Shown in pieces: positions 25,766 to 40,117 of a stretch of DNA of 64,000 nt. Numbering within the stretch: the stretch's first letter is position 1; every line of letters starts with the position of its first letter. The stretch is from Scenedesmus sp. ARA3 (lineage: Eukaryota; Chlorophyta; Chlorophyceae; Sphaeropleales; Scenedesmaceae), in assembly GCA_004335835.1 (NCBI GenBank), contig RWJK01001605.1:1-64000 (forward strand). Reading direction: 5' to 3'. Under the pieces are notes generated by a model. The model was not told the DNA's origin. It did no database searches and saw only the letters and a list, made by a program, of their open reading frames with translations. Made by a program: the position numbers and the translations under genes.

Positions 25766-27338
25766 TCAAGCCGCCACGGTTTTGAACAGCGACAGCAGCC
25801 CCCACAGCAGCCCCGCCATGATCAGCACATCCAGGAACAGGATGGGTGCAGCCAGCGGCACCTTCCAGGCAGGCACCATGCCTTTTGCCAGCATGTCACG
25901 CGCCATATCCAGCACGCTCTGCTGCAGGCTGATGTAGCTGGTGATGCCCAGCTCCTTTGCGGCCTTGTCCACGCACACCAGCGGCTTCTTGCGGAAGGTG
26001 GCGCGGCTGATGTTGACAGGCAGACCCATCATGGGGCCAAACACAATCAGCGACAGCAGCGGCGGCTTCAGCACGGGCAGCCAGCGCTTGGGGTAGGCCT
26101 TGGACAGGATCTTTGCGGCAGTCGGCAGCACATACGTGGACTCGGAGTTCAGCAAATACCGCCCGGATGCAGACGGGATGACAGCTGCCAGGCAGTGCGC
26201 GAGCGCCACATCACGCACGTCAACGACGCCGACACCGAGTGGTGGACTCCAGGGCCAGAATGCGCCGCTGAGCAGGTCGATCATCTGGCCTACTGACTCG
26301 CCGTCGGTGCGGCTGCCGGTGGGCGGGCCCCAGATCGCGCCCGGATTGATGCTGCACAGCTGCCAGCGGCCGCGGGCCTCCTCACACATCTGGTACGCGC
26401 GCTTCTCCGCTGCGGTTTTGGAGTAGAAGTAGGGGAAGGCTGTTGGTGTGGCTGTGATGTTCCAGTCTGCCTCGCTGAACACGTGGCCCCTGCCGCGCTC
26501 GTGCGGGTCGCCCCAGACTGAGACAGTTGAGGCGGTGAGCACCACGCGCTTCACGCTGGGGGACTTGTTCACGGCTGCCAGCACGTTTTCTGTGCCGAAG
26601 ATGGCGGGCCGGATCATCAGCTCCTCCTCCTTGCCTGGATAAGAAAGATGCCGGGTGCAGCACAGCGGAGTTAGACATAGACAGTGCTGCGATGCAGGGC
26701 AACGCAGCTGCACAGCCAAAAGTCACATGCCCAGATACCAATTGCTCCGCTGCACTACACTGCGGCTGCTGATGTTGCTGATGCTGCTGGCATGGTGTAC
26801 ATGGGTTGTACAATGCACCGCCCAGAACTGCTGCTGCTCACCCTTAGGCACGTCCAGCTGGTAGGGCGATGCTGTATGGATGACCATGTCGCAGCCTGCC
26901 ACAGCCTCGTCAAATGCCCCTGGTGCCAGCAGGTCTGCCTTGAACAGCTTCAGCCGGTCTGCGCCCTCCATTTGGTGCAGGTGGGCTGTGCCTGCAGAGG
27001 AGGCGGGGTGGCGGGCTGTGCCATGCACTGTGTGGCCTGCTGCCAGCAGCCGCTTGATGATGTGCCTGCAGGTGCGAATGTGGTAGACAAGTGCGGGTAC
27101 GTGGAGGTGAGTGAAGTGGCTTGAATTGCACGTTGTAGCTCCAGAGGGCAGGGCACAGGAGCGAAGTTGTGTGCATTGCAGTAGGTTTTGTGGCAGGTGA
27201 ACAAGGCTCGTGGGAAGGGTTTAGGGGGTAAAAGTGATATGTTGGTACCACGAAGAGAACACGCCGTATGACTGGCCATTTTGCTGCTGAAGCATGTCTG
27301 CCTCTGGCCAGTGCTGCTGCTCGCACTATCTGCTGTTG

Positions 27339-27380
<42 letters not shown>

Positions 27381-27631
27381 TGACAATTGAGCTGCAATGA
27401 ACTGGAGAGACAGCTTGTTTAACCAATGACCTTGCAAAATCGATTTGCATTTAGGCTTTCCCCGTCCGGCCTGGGCATCAACCACACTCCTCTACTGCAT
27501 TATGAGGCTCCAGCCTGCACAGGGCTGACTTTTCCTCACCCAGCCAAGTAGCCTGTAGCGCCCGTCACGCAGATACGTAGCTTTTTTGATTTCTTCTCTG
27601 CATCTGTCAGGGCTGGAAAAACATCAGCCAT
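25766..27631 (-). CDS. Dihydroflavonol reductase / cinnamoyl-CoA reductase-like SDR
   Basis: An extended short-chain dehydrogenase of the DFR/CCR/3-beta-HSD group; the substrate is unknown. Three minus-strand exons join in frame: 27631-27540, 27065-26842 and 26634-25766 (394 residues). The N-terminus has the NAD(P)-binding glycine motif CVTGATGYLAG, then GHTVHGTARHP, DMVIHTASPYQLDVPKG, VVLTASTVSVWG with the catalytic Ser region, and YFYSK as the YxxxK active site. NPGAIWGPP and VVDVRDVALAHCLA follow, as in the family. After residue 365 a hydrophobic segment (APILFLDVLIMAGLLWGLL) predicts a C-terminal membrane anchor, unusual for soluble DFR/CCR. The start ATG is the first in frame. A long CTG run lies in intron 1. 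Algae lack lignin, so a CCR role is doubtful. Confidence 0.88.
27342..27377 (+). repeat. CTG microsatellite in DFR-like intron 1
   Basis: Twelve CTG units on the plus strand, so CAG on the sense strand of the gene. It lies mid-intron, about 280 nt from the acceptor, an exception to the usual CTG-sense arrangement in introns of this window. Confidence 0.9.
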
Positions 27632-28132
27632 GTTGCTGGGACTGCGGATCCGCTCCGCGTAAACGAAGTTTGACAGCAGGTATGATCAAGCCCCGTCGAC
27701 ACAAATGTAACCCTCTTAAGTCAAGGATTGCCCTGTGACGATGCTGATAGGGCGTACAGGGCTTCGTGTGGAGAGGGGTGACTGTGGCAAATTGCCCAGT
27801 GGCAACTGAAAACCAGGGCGTGGCCTGCAGCTGACGTGCCGCAAAACGTGTAAAAGCAGGTGTGTTGTGCACTGTATCGATGCCCTCGCATGCGTGAGCT
27901 CCAGCAACTAACTCATTATGACACCAAAAGTGCAGACACTGACAATGTGCAAGCCAGCTTAAGCATGTGATCGCACGGCGGACAGACCAAAGGCAAATAT
28001 CAACACGCTGGTTTGGTCCCTGTGAACTCTGCGCCTGCCAGAACCCTTTCTACTGCTGGTACCCGCCTCGAACCATCCGAACATTGTGTGGATCATTGCT
28101 GCTCATGCTGGGATTCGGTGTCATGTATTGAA
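27632..28132. promoter_or_regulatory. Divergent intergenic region DFR-like / RKP-like
   Basis: A 501-bp head-to-head region. No clear TATA box or coding exon is seen. It must contain both promoters. Confidence 0.4.
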
Positions 28133-31100
28133 ATGGGAGTTCCTTTGCCTGGCGAGGGCGTCGGCATCGCTGGGTTGTTGTCTGCTGACATGCATCACAA
28201 CATCACCACCCAAGGCAGCAGCAAAGTACTGAACCAAATTTTTGAGGCAGATGTGCAGTTGCAGGATGCAGGACAGGAAGAGATTGATTATCAGCACGTG
28301 GACACATGGCTGCAGCAGCATGTCGCTGAGTTGCAGCGCAGCGCAGCAGTTCAAACCCAGGCTTCTGACGCAGCGTCATCCAGTGCTGCAGCAGCACTGC
28401 CTGCCCAGCCACCAGGCAGGCTTGGACCAGCTGATGTGGTCGTTGACAGAGGCAGCGTGTGCGGGCAGTTTTCATACAGCAGCGACGGCATGACGATAGA
28501 GTCTTTGGGCAGCTTCAGCAGCTGCAGGGCCAACGTAGCAGTGTTCAAGGGCAAGTGGATGTATGAGTGCACAGTGCTCACACCTGGCATACAGCAGGTG
28601 CGCCACATGGCATGCAGTAGCACAAATCAACTCGTTTGCAGGATGTCAGTGCAGCGAATGCATCAGCTCTGCGCCTGCAGTGCTTGCAGGAACATGTGCC
28701 TGCGCAGCCGGAATATAGCAAGGCAGCAGCTCGTGTGTTGACTTCTCAGCCAATCAAGCGGTGCAAACAGCAGCTACATGCACTATTCGTGCCATGAGCA
28801 ACAGCGTCGCAGCCGCAGGACTTGGCAGAGTGATGCTGCTGTGTGCTGCCGATGTGCAGATTGGCTGGGCTACGATCCACTGCCCCTTCACTGCCGAAGA
28901 GGGAGTGGGTGATGCATCAGACAGCTACGCAGTCGACGGCAAGCGCCAACGGTGAGTGCAGGCGCACAACCAGCAGCAGCAGTAGCGGCAGCAGCTGGAT
29001 GGCCTGTTGTGTCGAACAGCAGCTGCACTGAGCACATGCCCGAGCTGTGTGTGCATGCAGCATTTGCAGCAGCACACAGCACATGCGCACAGCTGACCAG
29101 TGCCCCTTGCTGCCAAACCCTCTGCTGACTTTCTGCCGGTCTCCCGCTGCCTGTGGCTTGCACATGCTTGTGCGACACATAAACTCATGTGACTTTTGCC
29201 CTGCCAGCAAGTGGAGTGTCAAGCCGCAGCCATACGGGGAGCCCTGGGTGCAGGGTGATGTGATGGGGTGCGCGCTGGACCTAGACGCAGGCAGTCTCAC
29301 CTTTTACCGCAACGGCACCAGCATGGGTGTTGCGTATGACCGCATACGCACCATGCAGCCCAGCCTGGCCTACTTTCCTGCAGTCAGCTTGTCACACACG
29401 GAGCGCTGCTGCTTGAATTTTGGCGGGAAGCCGTTTGTGTACCCCGTAGAGGGCTACCAGCCGCTGCATGCGCCGCCTGCTGCAGCAGATCAGGCTGTAG
29501 CGTCGTACTACTGCAGCTGCTTGGGCAGGCTGGTGCGGCTTGCAGCAGAGCAGCAAGGCAGCAGCAGCAGCAGCAGCAGCAGTGGCGGCGGCAGCAGTAT
29601 GCTTGATGCTGCAGCAGGCACAGCAGCGGCAGCGATGCAAGATGCCGCATTGCACTTTCCTGCAAGCAGCAACAAGGTGCAGGATGACATGCAGCGCGGG
29701 TTAGCTGCGGCAGCAGCAGCGCCCGCTTCGCCGTCAGCAGCAGTAGCAGCAGCTGCTGCAGCTGAGCGGCTAGGGCTTGGCTACCCTACTAGCTGCTCCC
29801 CTAGGCAGTCGAGATCTGGCAGCTGGTGCCCACCGTACGCAGCATCAGCAACATCAGCAGTGTTATCAAGCGCTGATATGGTGCTGCTGGCAGCAATGCT
29901 GCTGGAGCCACTGGAGCAGCAGCTGGTGCTGCAGCCTTACCTAGTGCATAGCGCGCTGCTGCCGCTGCTGCTGGAGTTGCAGCAGGAAGGGGAGGTGGCT
30001 GGGCAGCAGCGGCCACTGCAGCTGCTGCTGCAGCTGGCGCTTGTGGTCTGGCAGCAGCAAGGCTTCACGCACATAGTGATGGCACTGCTGCAGAACCTGG
30101 CCTACAGGTGAGCTTGTTTTGCGGGTGACGCATATACTTGTTAACAGGTTACGACAATGCCATTGAACAGCACATGCGGAGCATGAATTGCGTACCCTGC
30201 AAGAAAAGCAAGCGCTGCACATGCCGCTTTGCTAGCACTGCATGTTGTGTTGCGCCCGCGCCAGCGGGATGAACGCGTATTTATATTTTGTGTCGTTGAC
30301 GGCTGCACTGCTGCATACATCAATGGTGCCAAAAGGCATGCGTCTGCGCCGTATTCAATGTACCGACAATATTCAATGTACTCCTTCGCCTGCTGCTTGC
30401 CCCTGCAGGTGCCAGGTGTCGCCGCTGCTGGCTCAGGAGTTCCCCAACACCGCAGGCTTCCCCTACCTGGCGCTGGCGGTGAGCCTGCTGCGCTGCCCCG
30501 CAGTGATGCGGCTGCTGGCGGGCCATGGCGACTTCTGCCCAGTGCTGGAGGGGCTGCTGGCACGCAAGTCACCCAGCCCAAAGGACCTGCAGGTGTGTGA
30601 TGTCACAACTGGCAAGAACAACTTTTTCTGTGTTATTGCCGCATCTGTTTTTGATGTGACTGTATGGTGTGCAGTGGTGCCTGCATCAGCACCAGCATTT
30701 CCTGTCCACCATTCGCTTATAGTGGCGGTGGCTCACGCAGATGCTTGTCATACACACAGCGCGCTGCATGCTTAGCTGGACTTCATGCGCTGCCGCTGTC
30801 CTGCAGGTGCTGCTGCCGCACGTGTGGTGGCCTGGCTGCAAGGATGAGACTGCCAGTGAGGAGCGGCTGCGGGCCAGCGTCAGCGTCATCACAGCAACGC
30901 TCAGCAAGGTGGAGCAGTGCCAGGCGGAGCTCATGGAGCTGCTGCTGGCAACACCCTTCCAGCAAAGCAGCAGCAGCAGCGGCAGTGCGGCTACAGACGA
31001 CGACGACTGCGCGCTGCTGGTGTTCCTGCGGTTCCTGCTGCAGAAGAACCGCTCCGCGCTGCGCGACGTGCCGCCGCCCGGCCTCAGCGAGCCCACTGTC

Positions 31101-32742
31101 ATAATGAGCACATTCTTCGGCCTGCTGCAGCTGCTGCAGCCGGCGCTGCGTGCTGCACAGGAGCAGGGCAGCGGCCCGCTGGCTGCATTCCCTGCTGCCG
31201 AGCTGCTGGCAGGCTCCGGGCCCTCTGCTGAAGCGCAGCCGGTGTTTGACGTGCCTCGGCTGGGTGGCACCATCAGCCATCTAGCACGGGAGCACCCAAC
31301 ATCGCAGCTGGAGCAGCAGCCGGTACAGGTGCTGCAGCAGCAGCAGCTCGGCAGCAGCAGCGGCGCAGCAGAGGCAACGCTGTTGAAGGATGCGTGGGTG
31401 CCTGAGCTGCTGAACAGCTGCATGCTGCTGTACGCGTGGCGCGTGGGCTTCAGCTACAAGATGATCCACAGCCTGAGCAGCAGCGTGGCCAGCAGCAGCG
31501 CAACATTGGACGAGCTGGACCGCATGATCGCGGAGAGCTCGGAAGCGCTGCAGGTGCGGCACCGCTGCGCGTAATTGCTGCGCATCCAGTCAGCAAATGA
31601 TTGTAGTGTAGCTTGCTGTTGTGATGTTGCATTCTGCCTTGTTTGCTTTCTGATTGCCGCATATGCTCCTGCACCTGGGAGGCCTTTCAACACCATGCCT
31701 GGCCTGCGCTGGCGTTGTTTGTTGCCATTGTGCATGCAGTCTTCGTCATGGCTGCTGGGCACGCGCAAGGTGTACCGGGAGGAGCTCACGCGCGACGTGC
31801 GGCTGCTCACGCTGCTGCGCGCCGCGTTCTTCAGCCCAGCCAAGCAGCAGGCGCTCAGCACGCTCAGCCGCTACCTGGCCATGCTGCTCACCAACGTAGC
31901 AGACATACCAGCGGCGCAGCCGACCCAACCCGTAGCAGCAGCAGCAGCAGCAGCTCGAGAAGGTGCAGCAGCAGGAGGTGCAACAGCGCACCAGCCAGCA
32001 GCAGGTAGCAGCATCACTGCAGGCAGCGCCAGCGCAGCAGCAGCGGCTGCTGCTGGCAGCAGCACAAGCAGCGGCGATGAGGATGATCAGTCGCACCTGA
32101 GCAACCTGCTGCGCTACGTGCCTGTGGTGTATGTGGAGGTGGTGGTGGACTACCTCACTGCGCTGCGGCGGCTGGACGAGCAGCAGCCAGGCGCATGCAG
32201 CACAGCACAGGTGCGCGCGGTTGTGCCGCAAGCACATGTCAGTACCATGCGTGGCTAGCCGTGCACGACTTGAGTGGTGGCTGGTTCGGTTGCTGCTGCT
32301 GCATAGCCGGTATGCTGGTGGCTGGCACCATGATTTGTCCCTTGCAGAGGATTGCCCTGTATGACTGGCCCCCTTCCCTGGCCTGAGCTGTTGCTGGTGT
32401 GGAGGTTATCGTGCTCTGCCCTGCGTTTGCTCCTGGCCCTTGTGTGCAGCCTGCCGGCGCGCGTGCGTACGTGACGTGGCTGTGCGGCTGCCTGAACGAC
32501 GCGCGCATCGCCAACCCAGACGTGCAGGAGAGCCTGCTGCAGGTGCGGCGCGGTCCCAGCGGTGGTGGCTGCAGCGCTGATGCATTGGTTTTGCTGCATG
32601 CTGCATGGGAGGCGTCATCATCATCATCATCATCATCTCGTCATCAAACAAGCCTTGAGATATGCCATGCAGGGAGCCACCAAACAGCGCCTGCATGTGT
32701 CAGCTCACACAGCTATGCCACAGGTGCTTTGCAATCACTCTG

Positions 32743-32775
<33 letters not shown>

Positions 32776-35574
32776 GGCTGTCGCTGCTGCAGGTGGTTGG
32801 CCTGCTGCTAGACCACCCCGGGTGGCGCTCAGTGCTGGAGGAGCAGCCTGGCCATGCGCACCAGCTGCTGGCTGCGCTGCTGGTCACATTCGATAGCAGG
32901 CTGTGGCACCCAGCTAGTGGCGTGCTGCTCAAGTAAGTATTGATGTAATGTCACTGCCAGGTGCTCTGGAAATCTTGTATGCTTAGTAGTAGAAGGAGCT
33001 CTGCGACTAAGCATGAGATGCTTGTGCATTTGGGAAGGTTGATGGCAATGTGCCTACTGCTGCTGCTGTTGCTGCTGCTGCTGCAGAGTCATCAAGGATT
33101 GCGGCTTTGGGCATGCTGCCTTTGGCGTCCAGCCGCCGCACGGCAGCTTGCAGCGGCTGCTGCTTGGCTTGTTGGAAGAAGGCTCCACAGCGCCAGCATC
33201 AGACCCAACAGCAGCAGCAAGCCCAGCAGCGGACGATGCAGAAGCAGCAGAAGCAGCAGGAGCGCACGTGCGCGGCTTCCTGAACAAGCTGTTCAACACG
33301 CTCAACTGGACGCTGACTGAGTTCAGCGTGAGCGTGGACGACCTGCACAACCTGCGCGGCCGCCGCAGCATCCTGGAGGCGCAGAACCAGTACCGCCGCA
33401 CGGGGCTCATGTTTGAGCTGAGCGTGAACTTCCTGCGCATCCTGGAGTTCACGGTGGTGAGTGACTAGGCACTTTTGGGTGGGCACATCCCTGGCAGCAG
33501 CTGCTCCAGCGTATGTTGGTGCATTGGAGTATCAGCGCGCTTTGTACAGGAACACGTGTTATGGTAGGTGGTGGCCCTACGTGGCTTCTTGACTAGTTTG
33601 GCAGGTGAGCAGGCAAGCGCTTACGTTTGCACACCAGAGAGCGCCGTGTATCATACTTGTGGCGCTAATGCCACCTCTGCCAATGCTTCCTGCTGCTCCA
33701 CTTGTGCTGCTGCAGCCCACGCATGCGTTCCTGGGCAGCAGCGTGAACTGCACCCGGCTGCGCGAGCTGCTGCAGTTTGCGCTGTCACACTTCACCAACG
33801 GCCCTGACGCACACCGGCTCAACGAGCTGCTGCAGGCCAGCCAAGCCCCGGCGGCTGGCAGCAGCGGCGGCGGCACTGCTGCTGCTGCTGCTGGCGGCGC
33901 TGCAGCTGGCTCAGGGGCAGCTGGCCCGCCGCGGGCTGGCGCTGCGCTTGCTGCTGCTGTGCCTGCGTACGCTGCCAGTGCAATGCGCTTTGAGAGCAGC
34001 AGCTTGAGTGAGCGCGTGCAGAAGCCTGTGCTGCTGGCGCCGCTGATGGGCATACTGCTGGCGATCTGGAATGCACACAGCTCAGCAGCAGCAGCAGGGG
34101 GCAGTAGTACAGCAGCTGCTGGCGCCGAGGCTGATGTGCTGGATGAGCTTGTGCAGATGGCTGATGAGCGCTTCATGTCGTCGCTGCAGTTCATGCAGGT
34201 GGGTGGCTTGGAGGTGGTGCGTTGCTGGCAGTGTTGTGAGGTTGTGCTGCAGTGCTGGGGCGGGCGGTGTGAGCAGCAGTGTTGATCTCAACCTGCAGTG
34301 CATGTGGAGGCACGCCACGGCGTGCAGCACAGTAATGGCACATGATGTCATGGGTTGTCATTGCCCAGTATGCAGTTGCTGCGGCTGGGGTGCTGAGGTG
34401 CGCTCACTTTCAAGGCAGCAAACAAGTGCTCTGCAGCTTTCACAGCAAGTGACCTGCAGCATATTTAAGGCTGGGCCCGTATCGGGTAGCTGGTGCGGCA
34501 CCTGTCATGATTTGATTATTATTGCACCCTGCGCTGTGCGTGTTGCCTGCCTGCAGGATGTGGACTGGTCTGCGGCCTTCCCCAGCACTCCGCTGTCGCC
34601 CTCGCTGCGCGCATTCGGGCAGCTGCTGGACGCGCTGGCAGCAGCGCGCGCAGCGCACGACAGCTCTGCTGCTGCTGCGCCGCTGCCTGAGGAGGTGCCT
34701 GATGAGTTCACCGACCCCATCACCATGGACATCATGCGGGAGCCGGTGCGGCTGCCTGACTCGCAGATCGTGGTGGACAGGTGAGCTTGGCATATGCATG
34801 CTAGTTACGGGCCTGGCTGGGGCAATAGTGTCACGACACTTGCATGCATGCGGGCATATGGCTGCCTGGCTCGCAGATCGTGGTGGGCCGGTGGGTGGGC
34901 ATGGCGTGCTGGCTGGCGTGCTGGGATGCATGGATTGGCAGGGTGAGTTTGCGGTGGAGTGAGGGGAGCACAGCAAGGGGCTTGTGGCGGGGTTGGCGTG
35001 CAGGATGGGGTGTGCGTGTGGTGGGCAGGGAGGCAGTTGTGTAGGGAAGGTGGGGTAGAGGTGCACACCTGCAGTTGTAAAGGGAGGCATTTAGACAAAG
35101 TCAGGATCCCGAAGGACGCTGGTAATGCACAGCTACAGCTGTGCCGGAGTTGCAGGTGATGCTCGACAGTGTGATCTGATCCACACATGCTTGTATGGCT
35201 GCTGAAGTACGGGTTGCCGTACCGCGGTAGCGGCTGGAACATCATCAGCATGGCAGGAGCTGTCTGCTGAATCATCATCATCAGCTGCTGCTGCCTACTG
35301 CCGCAGGAGCACCATTGAGCGCCACCTGCTGTCGTCAGAGACGGACCCCTTCAGCCGGGCGCCCCTCAAACTGCAGCAGCTGCAGCCTGACGAGCAGCTG
35401 AAGGCACGCATCCAGCAGTGGCTGGCCAAGTGCCGGCAGCAGCAGCAGCCAGCAGCAGCAGCAGCCAGCAGCAGCAGCAGCAGACAGTTGAAAGTGCGCC
35501 GGTGTTGCAAGAAGCCGCACGGGTGTCAGCACGCTGCGACTGGAGAGAGTTTTCTACATCTGAGCCAGCTGTGA
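28133..35574 (+). CDS. RKP: KPC1/RKP-type SPRY ubiquitin ligase with C-terminal U-box
   Basis: An orthologue of plant RKP and animal KPC1 (RNF123), E3 ligases known to target cyclin-dependent kinase inhibitors. Twelve exons join in frame (1,478 residues): 28133-28597, 28860-28951, 29208-30107, 30409-30592, 30807-31553, 31740-32210, 32450-32542, 32793-32932, 33087-33456, 33716-34198, 34557-34780 and 35307-35574. The N-terminal SPRY domain has [47 protein letters not shown] and [20 protein letters not shown]. The RKP body follows: [55 protein letters not shown] and [14 protein letters not shown]. Where RKP has a C3HC4 RING, residues 1363-1435 are instead a U-box: [20 protein letters not shown], then [20 protein letters not shown]. 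No RING cysteines are present. The first in-frame ATG is at 28133. A Gln/Ala/Ser run and a short tail follow the U-box. Confidence 0.92.
34860..34893 (+). repeat. Partial copy of the U-box exon end inside the next intron
   Basis: These 34 bp match 34750-34783, the end of exon 11 plus its donor, at 31 of 34 positions. The copy lies 80 nt into the following intron. It looks like a local duplication and carries GTGGGT in place of the real donor GTGAGC. Confidence 0.8.
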
Positions 35575-35792
35575 CTTGGGTGTGGCTCGTGCAGTTTGCT
35601 TCACGAGGGGATCCCCTCTGGCATGCAGAGTGCTGGTATGCTAGCATGTCACATAGCAGCAGGCATCGTCCGAGGCAGCAGGGCTGCCCGTGGAACGGCG
35701 TAGCTGGGTTCGTAGTGGCAATGTTGCTGATATATAGCTGCACACGGCGCTTGTACAATTTTGCATTGCCTTTGCTGTGCGCCGTTTGCTGT

Positions 35793-35797
35793 TGTAA
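35793..35797 (+). terminator. Candidate UGUAA poly(A) signal of RKP-like gene
   Basis: TGTAA 219 nt past the stop codon, the expected chlorophyte poly(A) element at a reasonable 3' UTR distance. Confidence 0.45.
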
Positions 35798-35929
35798 TGT
35801 TTCCAGGGATTATCCGACGGGAAGGTGACGCCCGCGCCAACCAAGGTTTGTTCTGCAGTATGATTAATTGCCTTGTGCTGCACCCGCACGGGCGTGACAA
35901 CGTTGAACGTGCGTAACCTGTGCGCATAT

Positions 35930-36035
35930 CACACCACCCTTTCCCCACCATTCCCCCCACCCCATCCACCCTTCCCCCACCCTTCCCCCTACCCTCTCTT
36001 ACCCTAGTTCCCTAACCCCTACCTTCCCCCACACA
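35930..36035 (+). repeat. C-rich polypyrimidine tract
   Basis: About 105 bp of almost only C, T and A with many CCCC and CCCT blocks, including CCCTAACCCCTACC. It lies in the gap between two same-strand genes. It is not a regular tandem array. Confidence 0.75.
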
Positions 36036-37131
36036 AAGAAGCTGCACAGGGTTACACATGACTGATGTGTGGCTGGCGGCACTCGGTTGCTGGGTCGCGC
36101 ACCCCGTTGTCAGCCTTGCCAAAAGCTGTTCTCGTGCCTCCGCTCAGCACCCGGATGCCTGGAACTGTACGGCACCCTGGCTCTGTAACCCATAAGCGCT
36201 AGCAAAGCAAGCCAGCAAGCAACGAAGCCAAGTAAACACAGGTCAAGGGAAACAAACGCTTTCTCTTGCTTTATAACGGCTGCAGGCGGGCTTGCGTCAC
36301 AGCTGCTGCGCACGATCTGACCGAGGGCACCAGGCGTCCCTTGGTGGGCGGTCCAGCGTGCCTGCAAGCAATGTTTACTGATGTCACTGAGATCAATCAT
36401 TTTACGGCTGTCGTGGTCCACGAGGTGCAGCATGTTAATCAAGAGGACCTTGGAATCTTATGTTCTGTGACAGCATCGTCGGTTCCAGCATGTTCAGTGT
36501 GCACTGTATATACCCGGCTGCCAGAGGTCTTTCTTCACCGGTGTGCTCAAGTTTGAGTAGCTGTGGTATCATCCAGCGCGGTCTGCCACGAGTTTGGCAA
36601 CTGTGTCCCACACCCACGCCCGGCGTCGAGGCAGTTTTGGCGGCAGGCGTTGAATCCTGGTGAGCCATAGATGCTAATGACTGTCTCAAAGATCTTCATC
36701 AAATGCTGTTCACGTTTTGGCCGGCGAGGGCTGCTTGGCGTAGCGATTACGAATATCGGAACATCGGAAGCATCCGCGATGATCCTCAAGCGCTGCCAGT
36801 TGCTTCAAACAAGCAGTCATTGAGCAGTTTAGCAAAAGCAGATGCCAGCAGGCTGTGCGTGCTGATCGGAAGCAGTGCCACGGTGCGATCTGAGCCGTCT
36901 GACTCAGCTGCAGCGCAGTCATTTCACAGTGACAAGCAGCAGAGCTCTGCGGGTGGTGCTTACTCAGCAGATTCAAGCCCTCTTATGTTATCACGGTCAA
37001 CGTATATCATGCACAAGTGCGTCGGATGGCCCGCAAGGAAGGCACCTCATGCTCAGCCGCATCTGTTCCTGCTGCTGCTGCTGCTGCTGCTGCCCACCGC
37101 CCCACCCAACCCCACCCCCGCCCACAGCACG

Positions 37132-40117
37132 ATGTCCTCCCAGTCCCTGCTGCTGCTGCTGGCCCTCGTGGCCGCAGCGCTGCACTTTGCCACCTGCCAG
37201 GATGAGGTGGACGCCGCCACCTGGTGGAAGAAGCCCGACCCCAGCCCCCCCACCTGGTGCAACAAGCACAACCTGCCAGGCAGGTACTACCGAGGCAAGT
37301 TCCGCCCAGGCAAGGGCTGCAAGCCCACACCCCCTCCCGCCCCCACCTGCCCTACCGGCAAGGTGCCCGTGGCCTACGTAAACCTGCTGCGCAGCAACGA
37401 CAGCCTGCCTGGCGTCAGCAGCAAGAGCGGCCCTGGCATGTTTGGCATGATGAAGGTGCGGGCGTAGCTTTTCATCTGTTGGTAACATTATCAACCATTT
37501 GATTGATTTGTGGCACATCTGAGTGCTTGCTATTTGTGTGGTCGTGCTCCACGGCGGTACCACAGAGCGGCACCTGAGGATCTGGGGCTAGCCTGCAAGC
37601 TGTGAATATTTTTGCTGTGCTGCAGCATCCACTTCATGCCACACTGCCAACTTTCCATCATTGCCGGTCTAGTTGATGCCCACTGCTGTTGTGGACTGGA
37701 TGTTATCAAGCTGCAACGTTGCAGTAAACTGCACAGGAGCCACACACCAACATCTGCGCCCCTGCACCTGCTGCCATCTGCTTGCAGGACAAGGATGGCC
37801 AGGACGTGTGGAGGGTCCTGCCCAACGCCAACGCAGCACAGGTCTACTCTGCCGTGCCCGCCAACGCCGGCGGCTACTCCTTCCCCGCTGGTGCCGCCTA
37901 CGGCAAGTTCAGGTCCTACTCCAACGCGCCCGACATCCCCACGCTGTTCCAGCGCGGCAAGGACGTGTACATGGTCAACCACTTCGAGTACAACCAGCCC
38001 GGCAGCGTGTGAGTGTGCATGAGACGCGCTGGGTGGCGCATGTGCACCTGCTGCATGTCAACGGATGCTGACTGAGAGCTGCATGTACTCGTGTGTGACA
38101 TGCCAGTGGTGCTCAAAGAACATGTAAAACCGGGTCATGCATAACCAGGGACATGCATAACCAGGACATGTAAAACCAGGACACGCATAACCAGGACATG
38201 CATAACCAGGACATGTATAACCAGCACATGTATAACCAGGACATGTATAACCAGCTGAGTACAACCAGCCAGGCAGCGTGTGAGTGTACGCCAGAGCTGC
38301 AGGGCCTGCCTGCTGAGCTCAAGCCGGCCCGCTGCGACTTTCATGTGCCAGGCCCTGTGGTCATTGTGGGCATGCAGCACCCCCTACAGTGCACTGCACA
38401 GCGCATCTCCTCCCGCTCACGCTGCTGTCATGCTGCGCCTGTTTGTTGCGTGCAGGTACCTGTCCAAGCTGAGCCAGGACAAGGCCAGTGGCAAGCTGAC
38501 CCCTGTGGCCACTGAGGCCATCAAGGACGGCCCAGGCACCTGGTTCCCCTGCTCCGGCACAATCACCCCCTGGGACAGCCACCTGGGCAGTGAGGAGTAC
38601 CCCGCTGATTGTGAGTGTAAAGAGATATACTTAAACAAGATGAATGCACAGCTGCGCACCTTGAGTGTGACCTGCTGCGAGCTGCATAACAAGAGGCTGC
38701 CTATTGGCCCAATACCCTACACCTAGTTGCTGCTTCCTTGCACCGCTTGCATGGGCAGAGCTTCTCAGAAGCCGACTGTCTTGCACACGCAAACCATGTC
38801 TGCGCTTCCGGTGTGACACCGGCATGCACTCCTCGCATGCCTGCCTGCTGCAGCAAGAGCGCATACAGTTTGCCGACTCTGCTGCCTCGTCTCGCTCCGC
38901 CTCTGCTGCCCGGTGCAGGCCGCGTGTACCAGGACACCATGCTGGCAACCACCTGCACCGCCAAGCCTGACTTCACTGCCTGTGGCTGGGCTGCTAAGGA
39001 CGGCTTCCCCGCTGACTCAGCCATGGGCATGTCTCGCAGCATTGGCGGCTGGGGCATGCACCCGGTGAGGGCCAGCCCCCAGCAGCATGATACACTGCGA
39101 GGCATGAGCGTATTGATTGATTGGTGTTTCGGATGATGCACTCATGCTGAGACCTGCTTGCCACTGTGATTGCCATGCACAAGCGATCACAGCTTCACAT
39201 CTGAATTGCGTAGCCCTGCCTGTGCTAGGTGAGCCGCCGTACACCGCAGACGTAGCTGTCCTGCTGCACCATCCTCGTTCTCATTCGCCTTCGCTCTGGT
39301 TGGCTGCGATCGTGCGCGCAGATCAGCGGTGATGACGAGGGCGTTGACCGCAAGGACGCTGACATCATCGCCTTCGAGTCTGCTCTCGGCTTCGGCAACC
39401 AGGCGGTGCTTGACAACTTCCGCAAGGAGTTCAAGTGAGCCGCTGCTCCCTGCTGCTGCCGCTGCTTCTGTATATGCTCAGCCTGATTTTGTGAAGAACT
39501 ATGGCAAAAGGCCAGGTGCTTTGCATGATGCTGGAAGACAGTTGTGTTAGGGCCATCAGGCCGCAGTTGTTGGCGGTGCTGACTGAAAAACACTGCTGTG
39601 AGGGCAGGATTTATGCATTGATGATGGCAACAGATTTAGCAGATTGTGTGCGCATGTAGGTCAGTGTGCTGGCAGCTGCCCAGCTGACAACATCACTCCC
39701 TTGCTGACGCTGCATGCAACTCACGTTGCCGCTGTGTGTGCTGCAGCTGCTACGCATACGGCTGGAGCCCGGAGGTGTCTGTTTCCAACGACGGCTCCGC
39801 CAGATACCTCAAGTGGTGAGCGCCCTGCCGGCCAGCATTTTGCTGAGTGTGTATACGTCCTCCTCTATGTCTATACTCTGTCAGTGTGACTGATGGATGT
39901 GACACAGGGTTACATTGCAGTGTGTGGTGCCGCGTGGCCTCTTCCCACATGCGTTATTGGCGGTCGTGTCGCATTTTGCTGCAGTGCAGCACGCCCACCC
40001 TGTCGTAGGCAAGTTGACAATGTGCGGGAACTGTGCGTGCAACCAAGGGGCAGGTTCTAGTAGTACAGGACGTGACTTGTCATCAGGCAGCATCGAATGC
40101 AGCCAGTGCTGTCGCTC

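Follow-up and report, generated by a model that had tools for sequence, protein, structure and literature searches.

Can a conserved ubiquitin ligase exchange the domain with which it docks its E2 enzyme and keep the rest of its body? The question is raised by a gene in a stretch of 64,000 nucleotides from the green alga Scenedesmus sp. ARA3 (contig RWJK01001605.1, forward strand), hereafter the window. Ligases of the RKP (plants) and KPC1 (RNF123; animals) type have a SPRY domain near the N-terminus, a helical body with a TPR_RNF123 region, and a C-terminal E2-docking domain. The algal protein shares this architecture, but has an E4-type U-box instead of the C3HC4 RING and only a sub-cut-off match to RKP_N (PF19322; E 0.0022, 18.3 bits, cut-off 27). 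RING and U-box share a fold. We consider it highly probable that the gene is the alga's only detected RKP/KPC1 (RNF123) orthologue, that it bears an E4-type U-box in place of the RING, and that its product is a ligase of Ufd2-like build to which a SPRY domain has been added.

The gene model, rebuilt from the genomic sequence, comprises 12 exons at 28133-35574 (+) and encodes 1,478 amino acids (aa). All 11 introns are GT-AG, and the exons form a single open frame of 1,478 codons plus a TGA ending at 35574; another TGA lies in frame 5' of the ATG, at 27968. The U-box occupies the C-terminus (aa 1362-1431, Pfam E 1.1e-26) and is divided between exons 11 and 12, with phase 2 on both sides of the junction. 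Exon 11 opens with a block, a tryptophan plus a helix, which in the alignment precedes the RING of streptophyte RKPs and the U-box of algal RKPs (the tryptophan is present in 12 of 14 aligned relatives, the exceptions being P0018 and P0007), and the U-box follows this block directly within the same exon. With RKP block and U-box half in one exon, it is very unlikely that two neighbouring genes were joined by chance, and exon and frame agree with the original prediction of one gene of 12 exons whose U-box spans exons 11 and 12 in matching phase 2. Its further claim, an RKP/KPC1-type ligase with a U-box exactly at the RING position of its relatives, is borne out by Pfam and the exon 11 alignment alike. 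No RING family of Pfam was found in the window protein. A spliced RING exon downstream was considered and rejected, as no RING pattern occurs in the six frames of positions 27000-40000, a scan that a RING split by an intron would escape. RKP_N is detected at E<=0.001 (hmmscan) in 2 of 30 U-box RKPs versus 16 of 24 RING RKPs. Judged by the sequence of its body, the window gene is an RKP/KPC1 orthologue, and not a KPC1 in the strict, RING-bearing sense.

By its sequence the U-box is of the E4 (Ufd2/UBE4-like) type. Its matches in the PDB include UBE4A (4.2e-20), yeast Ufd2 (about 7e-16) and UBE4B (1.7e-14); within the alga it is 53-54% identical to the U-box of UFD2 and 28-33% identical to five other U-boxes (8 of 15 matched loci compared), and a six-frame recount at E<=0.001 gave four U-boxes besides that of UFD2, at 30-33% identity. 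Compared as profiles, RKP U-boxes match UFD2 U-boxes at 6.7e-48, and the RKP RING is weakly similar to the UFD2 U-box (21.8%) and the RKP U-box (28.5%), on which grounds we rejected decay of a RING in place into a U-box. Recent borrowing from the alga's own UFD2 was also rejected, since the U-box of that gene groups with those of green UFD2s, if weakly (87/78). In the U-box tree (UFD2 P0172 was left out, having failed the U-box pattern) the RKP U-boxes are monophyletic in 0 of 200 bootstrap trees, the columns being too few to resolve them, and a single RKP U-box clade is not rejected (p value of the approximately unbiased test, p-AU, 0.436). In an alignment of 30 U-box RKPs, the U-box positions D-P, M, P-V, L-P, D-P-F and R are invariant, and the window protein keeps them all, including R1407 of DPF-S-R, which we take to be the place of the linchpin arginine. 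This conservation speaks for a probable function and makes it very improbable that the U-box has decayed and left an adaptor without ligase activity, a reading to which the short, U-box-less forms of two relatives (P0001 and P0002, discussed below) lend some support.

Within the 87-Mb genome the window locus is the sole reported TPR_RNF123 match in a search that scored the best candidates. An RKP query gave six matches in the window and one RING elsewhere (C1475), and searches scoring best candidates revealed no second RKP locus in the genome. That sole extra RING was rejected as a second RING-type RKP because it looks like COP1, to which we presume its motif belongs. Canonical UFD2 is a separate gene (G000:C1072, 37320-43070; L001, L018) whose U-box lies within one exon, so the intron inside the U-box of the RKP gene is not common to UFD2. 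A second gene with a UFD2 core was observed at G000:C1017, about 198116-208201 (L017, L019): its core exons (Ufd2P_core 7.3e-12, 2.7e-11 and 2e-11) are followed on the same strand by E2 exons (UQ_con 6.4e-22; exons joined by eye), and the own-genome U-box search detected no U-box 3' of the core. From its sequence this locus looks like a candidate fusion of an E4 core to an E2.

U-box RKPs are widespread through the core chlorophytes and are not an oddity of a single species. Three protein searches listed 230 proteins (two of the listings hold 120 of 196 and 120 of 169 matches), which were screened together with the window protein by an RKP-tail model, as a sample and not as a census. Among the matches listed, 127 of the 231 proteins fit the model: 77 have a RING only, 42 a U-box only (the window protein included) and 8 neither, and no protein among the 127 has both. 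No named species in these listings has both forms. Forty-one proteins besides that of the window, some of them derived from transcripts, thus join an RKP tail to a U-box; the MMETSP transcripts P0130 and P0131 hold both in one reading frame, without SPRY. The original prediction had proposed a search for SPRY plus U-box in other chlorophytes, and the listed matches supply 11 named species with a U-box RKP: Sanguina, Ostreobium, Chlamydomonas sp. UWO 241, Gonium, Bryopsis, Edaphochlamys, Volvox africanus, Tetraselmis, Parachlorella, Elliptochloris and Chlorella vulgaris. Six of these were checked in the taxonomy and are core chlorophytes of four classes; the other five we presume to be chlorophytes. 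The named owners of RING-type RKPs listed are land plants, Chara and animals, to which, reading from gene names, we would add Chlorokybus (P0017) and Cyanophora (P0007), and no named prasinophyte occurs among the matches listed. P0139 and P0147 are likewise RING-type RKPs; should P0139 prove to come from a chlorophyte or a deep-branching green alga, it would help to place the exchange in time.

What kind of body bears this U-box? Many RKPs bear a precomputed Ufd2P_core label, plant RKP P0064 is named 'Ubiquitin conjugation factor E4, core', and hmmscan (E<=0.001) finds Ufd2P_core in 17 of 30 U-box relatives and in 19 of 24 RING relatives. We compared body profiles with the catalytic ends removed and with sequence-reversed sets as the control. 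The bodies of 15 RING-type RKP/RNF123 proteins match those of 36 UFD2s with 98.8% probability over 725 collinear columns (E 9.9e-17, single comparison), and 21 U-box-type RKP bodies do so with 98.9% over 660 columns; the reversed controls give 0.3% (RING-type) and 0.7% (U-box-type). Nine land-plant bodies alone reach 96.1% (reversed 0.1-0.2%). The first 330 residues, containing SPRY, give 0.4-5.3%, and the final 260 residues before the RING, taken alone, give no confident match to UFD2 (2.2% for animals, 41.4% for land plants). A Foldseek search with a confident predicted model of a U-box relative returned Ufd2 structures as best matches, and a search with a weaker model of a RING-type protein also found Ufd2. 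The Ufd2 fold of the body is thus recognised by way of the profiles and predicted fold of relatives, the bodies of RKPs and UFD2s being about 14-19% identical. On these profiles and models the RKP/KPC1 body looks like a Ufd2/E4-type scaffold, and RKP/KPC1 like a paralogue of E4. With UFD2/UBE4A/UBE4B the algal protein would share both a C-terminal E4-type U-box and, in the same order, a homologous helical scaffold; it differs in its added SPRY domain and falls apart from UFD2 in the tree. The original prediction that an E2-docking module may have been swapped while the body stayed holds for the position of the U-box, but needs amending for the body, which itself appears to be of Ufd2/E4 type, so that the exchange would have happened between two homologous frames.

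Body trees were built from chosen subsets of the 127 RKP-like proteins: 41 rows; 46 rows, from which the long-branched P0011 as well as P0001, P0002 and others were removed; and 29 RKPs with 12 UFD2s. The first two were rooted on animals by choice, and the UFD2-rooted tree carries a warning of long branches meeting. The window protein groups with volvocalean U-box RKPs (100, starred; 46-row tree), and a branch of 100, starred, separates RKPs from UFD2s. Green proteins, with U-box and with RING, fall together in the animal-rooted trees (96, starred, and 91) and in the UFD2-rooted tree (89), which favours an ancestral RING and a gain of the U-box in the green line. In the 46-row and UFD2-rooted trees, RING protein P0139 branches off close to the base of the greens and separately from the streptophytes, and grouping the green RING RKPs as one clade is not rejected (p-AU 0.217). 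An exchange of RING for U-box in the early green line is favoured, with less certainty than the orthology; the homologous scaffolds of the two ligases, each ending in the E2-docking domain, would have made it easy.

Several observations, on the gene model, the body and the trees, pull the other way. The model for the alga was built from genomic DNA alone. P0001 (a transcript) and P0002 (a gene model), the nearest proteins to the window in the 41-row tree, lack the U-box and depart from RKP sequence where exon 9 meets intron 9, after which P0001 continues for some 60 unrelated residues and P0002 ends within a few; in the window, the frame read on into intron 9 (33457-33715) runs for three residues to a stop (...ILEFTVVSD). 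A short, perhaps regulated product that lacks the U-box may be made. The same two proteins, and the genomic origin of the model, would suit an artefact in which an early-ending RKP was joined to a separate U-box gene. We rejected such a join, which seems to us barely credible given the fitting phases, the composition of exon 11 and the many relatives with the same join. As to the body, the window protein's own Ufd2P_core match (aa 801-1014, E 0.0049, 15.8 bits) lies under the cut-off of 20.4, three animal RNF123 proteins alone reach just 80.8% against UFD2 (reversed 0.1-0.2%), the RING-type model is of modest quality (predicted local distance difference test, pLDDT, 67.1), and VIA Z places SPRY structures (up to 28.1) above Ufd2.

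In the best trees, the RING proteins of streptophytes form a group nested among U-box lines (support 90-93, unstarred); P0011, a RING protein on a long branch, falls among chlorophyte U-box rows in the 41-row tree; and forcing one clade of U-box RKPs costs 29.5 log units (p-AU 0.07). Since a U-box clade is neither rejected nor favoured and the RING group is nested, a single simple swap is not demonstrated: of the original prediction that a U-box replaced the RING, the place of the U-box stands, and for the order of events in the green line one swap, a swap with reversal, or a long coexistence of two forms may all be compatible with the trees. The nesting would also suit a Ufd2-like ancestor with a U-box, which chlorophytes kept, for a time beside a RING form, the RING being the newcomer elsewhere; so would a body that is homologous with the core of UFD2 and has its catalytic domain in the same place, and the position of the RKP U-boxes outside those of green UFD2s (green group 87/78). 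We regard this retention as unlikely, because the RINGs of animals, a probable glaucophyte and streptophytes are alike over their full length, which makes the RING older than their split, because the bodies track the species tree and show no split into an ancient RING family and an ancient U-box family, and because the sample contains neither a protein with both domains nor a named species with both forms.

If a U-box did replace the RING on an RKP body, how would the protein work? By analogy with its relatives, the SPRY domain, and probably a UBL-UBA partner, would bring the substrate; the long helical Ufd2-like solenoid would hold it and set the distance; and the U-box, needing no zinc, would dock an E2~ubiquitin of the Ubc4/UBE2D class and activate transfer. 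For RKP/KPC1 the partner is KPC2/UBAC1 and the substrate a CDK inhibitor. The U-box of E4B activates UbcH5c~Ub. The 'UBE4-type E2s' named in the original prediction have to be dropped, UBE4 proteins being ligases; the fitting E2 would be of the Ubc4/UBE2D kind. We infer E2 choice, activity and substrate of the algal protein from such analogies. For fly KPC1, the source text available reports that a small in-frame change in SPRY abolishes binding of KPC2, a UBL-UBA adaptor (PMC7802972). The titles of PDB entries 3m62 and 3m63 name the UBL domains of Rad23 and Dsk2 as bound by yeast Ufd2, and other PDB titles record Ufd2 structures with Ubc4~Ub and K29-linked chains, onto which Ufd2 is described as adding K48-linked ubiquitin (PMC7724090). 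These activities, together with the Ufd2-like scaffold and U-box, would suit an E4 that elongates chains on substrates already marked by a different ligase, SPRY providing a second site of recognition. Such a role is possible but rather doubtful, as the same genome retains a canonical UFD2 and the RING-type relatives that share the scaffold are described, in the text available, as E3s (PMC7802972).

We know of no other orthologous ligases in which RING and U-box stand in for each other. The original prediction that no RKP with a U-box had been described holds for the available text of the open-licence papers searched, in which we found none, with the qualification that SPRY U-box proteins were already listed: a 2015 survey of Chlamydomonas U-box proteins includes SPRY among the extra domains of CrPUBs (PMC4378952). 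These share SPRY and U-box with the window gene and very likely belong to the same family; the difference is that the survey, as far as its available text goes, gives a mere domain combination and does not mention KPC1 or RKP. Similarly, P0158, 'E3 ubiquitin-protein ligase RNF123 [Chlorella vulgaris]', has SPRY, TPR_RNF123, Ufd2P_core and U-box, but takes its name from RNF123, and the name is silent on the U-box. From the text available, RKP is a single-gene RING group in a survey of plant RING ligases (PMC6118397), and KPC1 shows limited similarity to yeast Hel2 (PMC3343073). No link between KPC1/RNF123 and UFD2 was found in the available text of the open-licence papers searched, and the deeper relation of KPC1 to Ufd2 appears unreported in that literature.

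We are evenly divided on the broadest reading, namely that KPC1/RKP is an unrecognised branch of E4 (Ufd2) in all its hosts, humans included, with the chlorophyte form, which would combine the whole Ufd2-type engine of superhelix and U-box with a SPRY substrate arm, as the missing link, and with an E2-docking end exchangeable between RING and U-box in the course of evolution, possibly through recombination between the paralogous RKP and UFD2 genes. The RKP family serves as a natural experiment: the substrate arm is constant, and the contribution of the E2-docking module can be read from the difference. The Ufd2 relation would supply a structural template for the KPC1/RNF123 body; in a search of the PDB with oyster RNF123, the sole RNF123-named entry among the best 60 of 68 sequences was the RING 2ma6. 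This relation likewise points to a shared basis for two interactions, that of Ufd2 with the UBL of Rad23/Dsk2 and that of KPC1 with the UBL-UBA protein KPC2 (PMC7802972, in the text available).

Table. Exons of the RKP/KPC1-type gene and domains of the encoded protein (window positions)
Feature	Position	Strand	Basis
Exon 1, ATG start, N-terminal region and first SPRY residues	28133..28597	+	GT donor; rebuilt model
SPRY, aa 141-259, exons 1-3	28553..29427	+	Pfam PF00622 E 1.7e-27
Exon 2, SPRY	28860..28951	+	rebuilt model
Exon 3, remaining SPRY, start of helical body, low-complexity insert	29208..30107	+	model; own-genome match with RKP P0017
Exon 4, helical body	30409..30592	+	rebuilt model
Exon 5, helical body with WWPG, PPPGL and PRLGG blocks	30807..31553	+	model; own-genome RKP-query match
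Exon 6, Ufd2-core-like helical body	31740..32210	+	model; sub-cut-off Ufd2P_core match
Exon 7, Ufd2-core-like helical body	32450..32542	+	rebuilt model
Exon 8, Ufd2-core-like helical body	32793..32932	+	rebuilt model
Exon 9, conserved 16-residue RKP block	33087..33456	+	rebuilt model
TPR_RNF123, aa 1095-1195, exons 9-10	33277..33838	+	Pfam PF25576 E 2e-30
Exon 10, end of TPR_RNF123 region	33716..34198	+	rebuilt model
Exon 11, RKP-specific linker block, then first U-box half	34557..34780	+	model; alignment of relatives
U-box, first half, aa 1362-1389 and two bases of codon 1390	34695..34780	+	Pfam, model
U-box, second half, to aa 1431, with TDPFSR including R1407	35307..35430	+	Pfam, model
Exon 12, including stop codon TGA	35307..35574	+	rebuilt model

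The window is very rich in CTG/CAG runs, found in many introns and coding inserts; the protein accordingly contains tracts of Ala, Gln and Ser, and several acceptors are preceded by CTG tracts (for example 32745-32792 and 33058-33086). Open frames at 25766-27220 (-) carry what looks like the motif of a protein of the NAD-dependent epimerase/dihydroflavonol-reductase type. A reading frame from 37131 onward (+), which may belong to the following gene, holds the start of what is probably a secreted protein (MSSQSLLLLLALVAAALHFATCQDE...).
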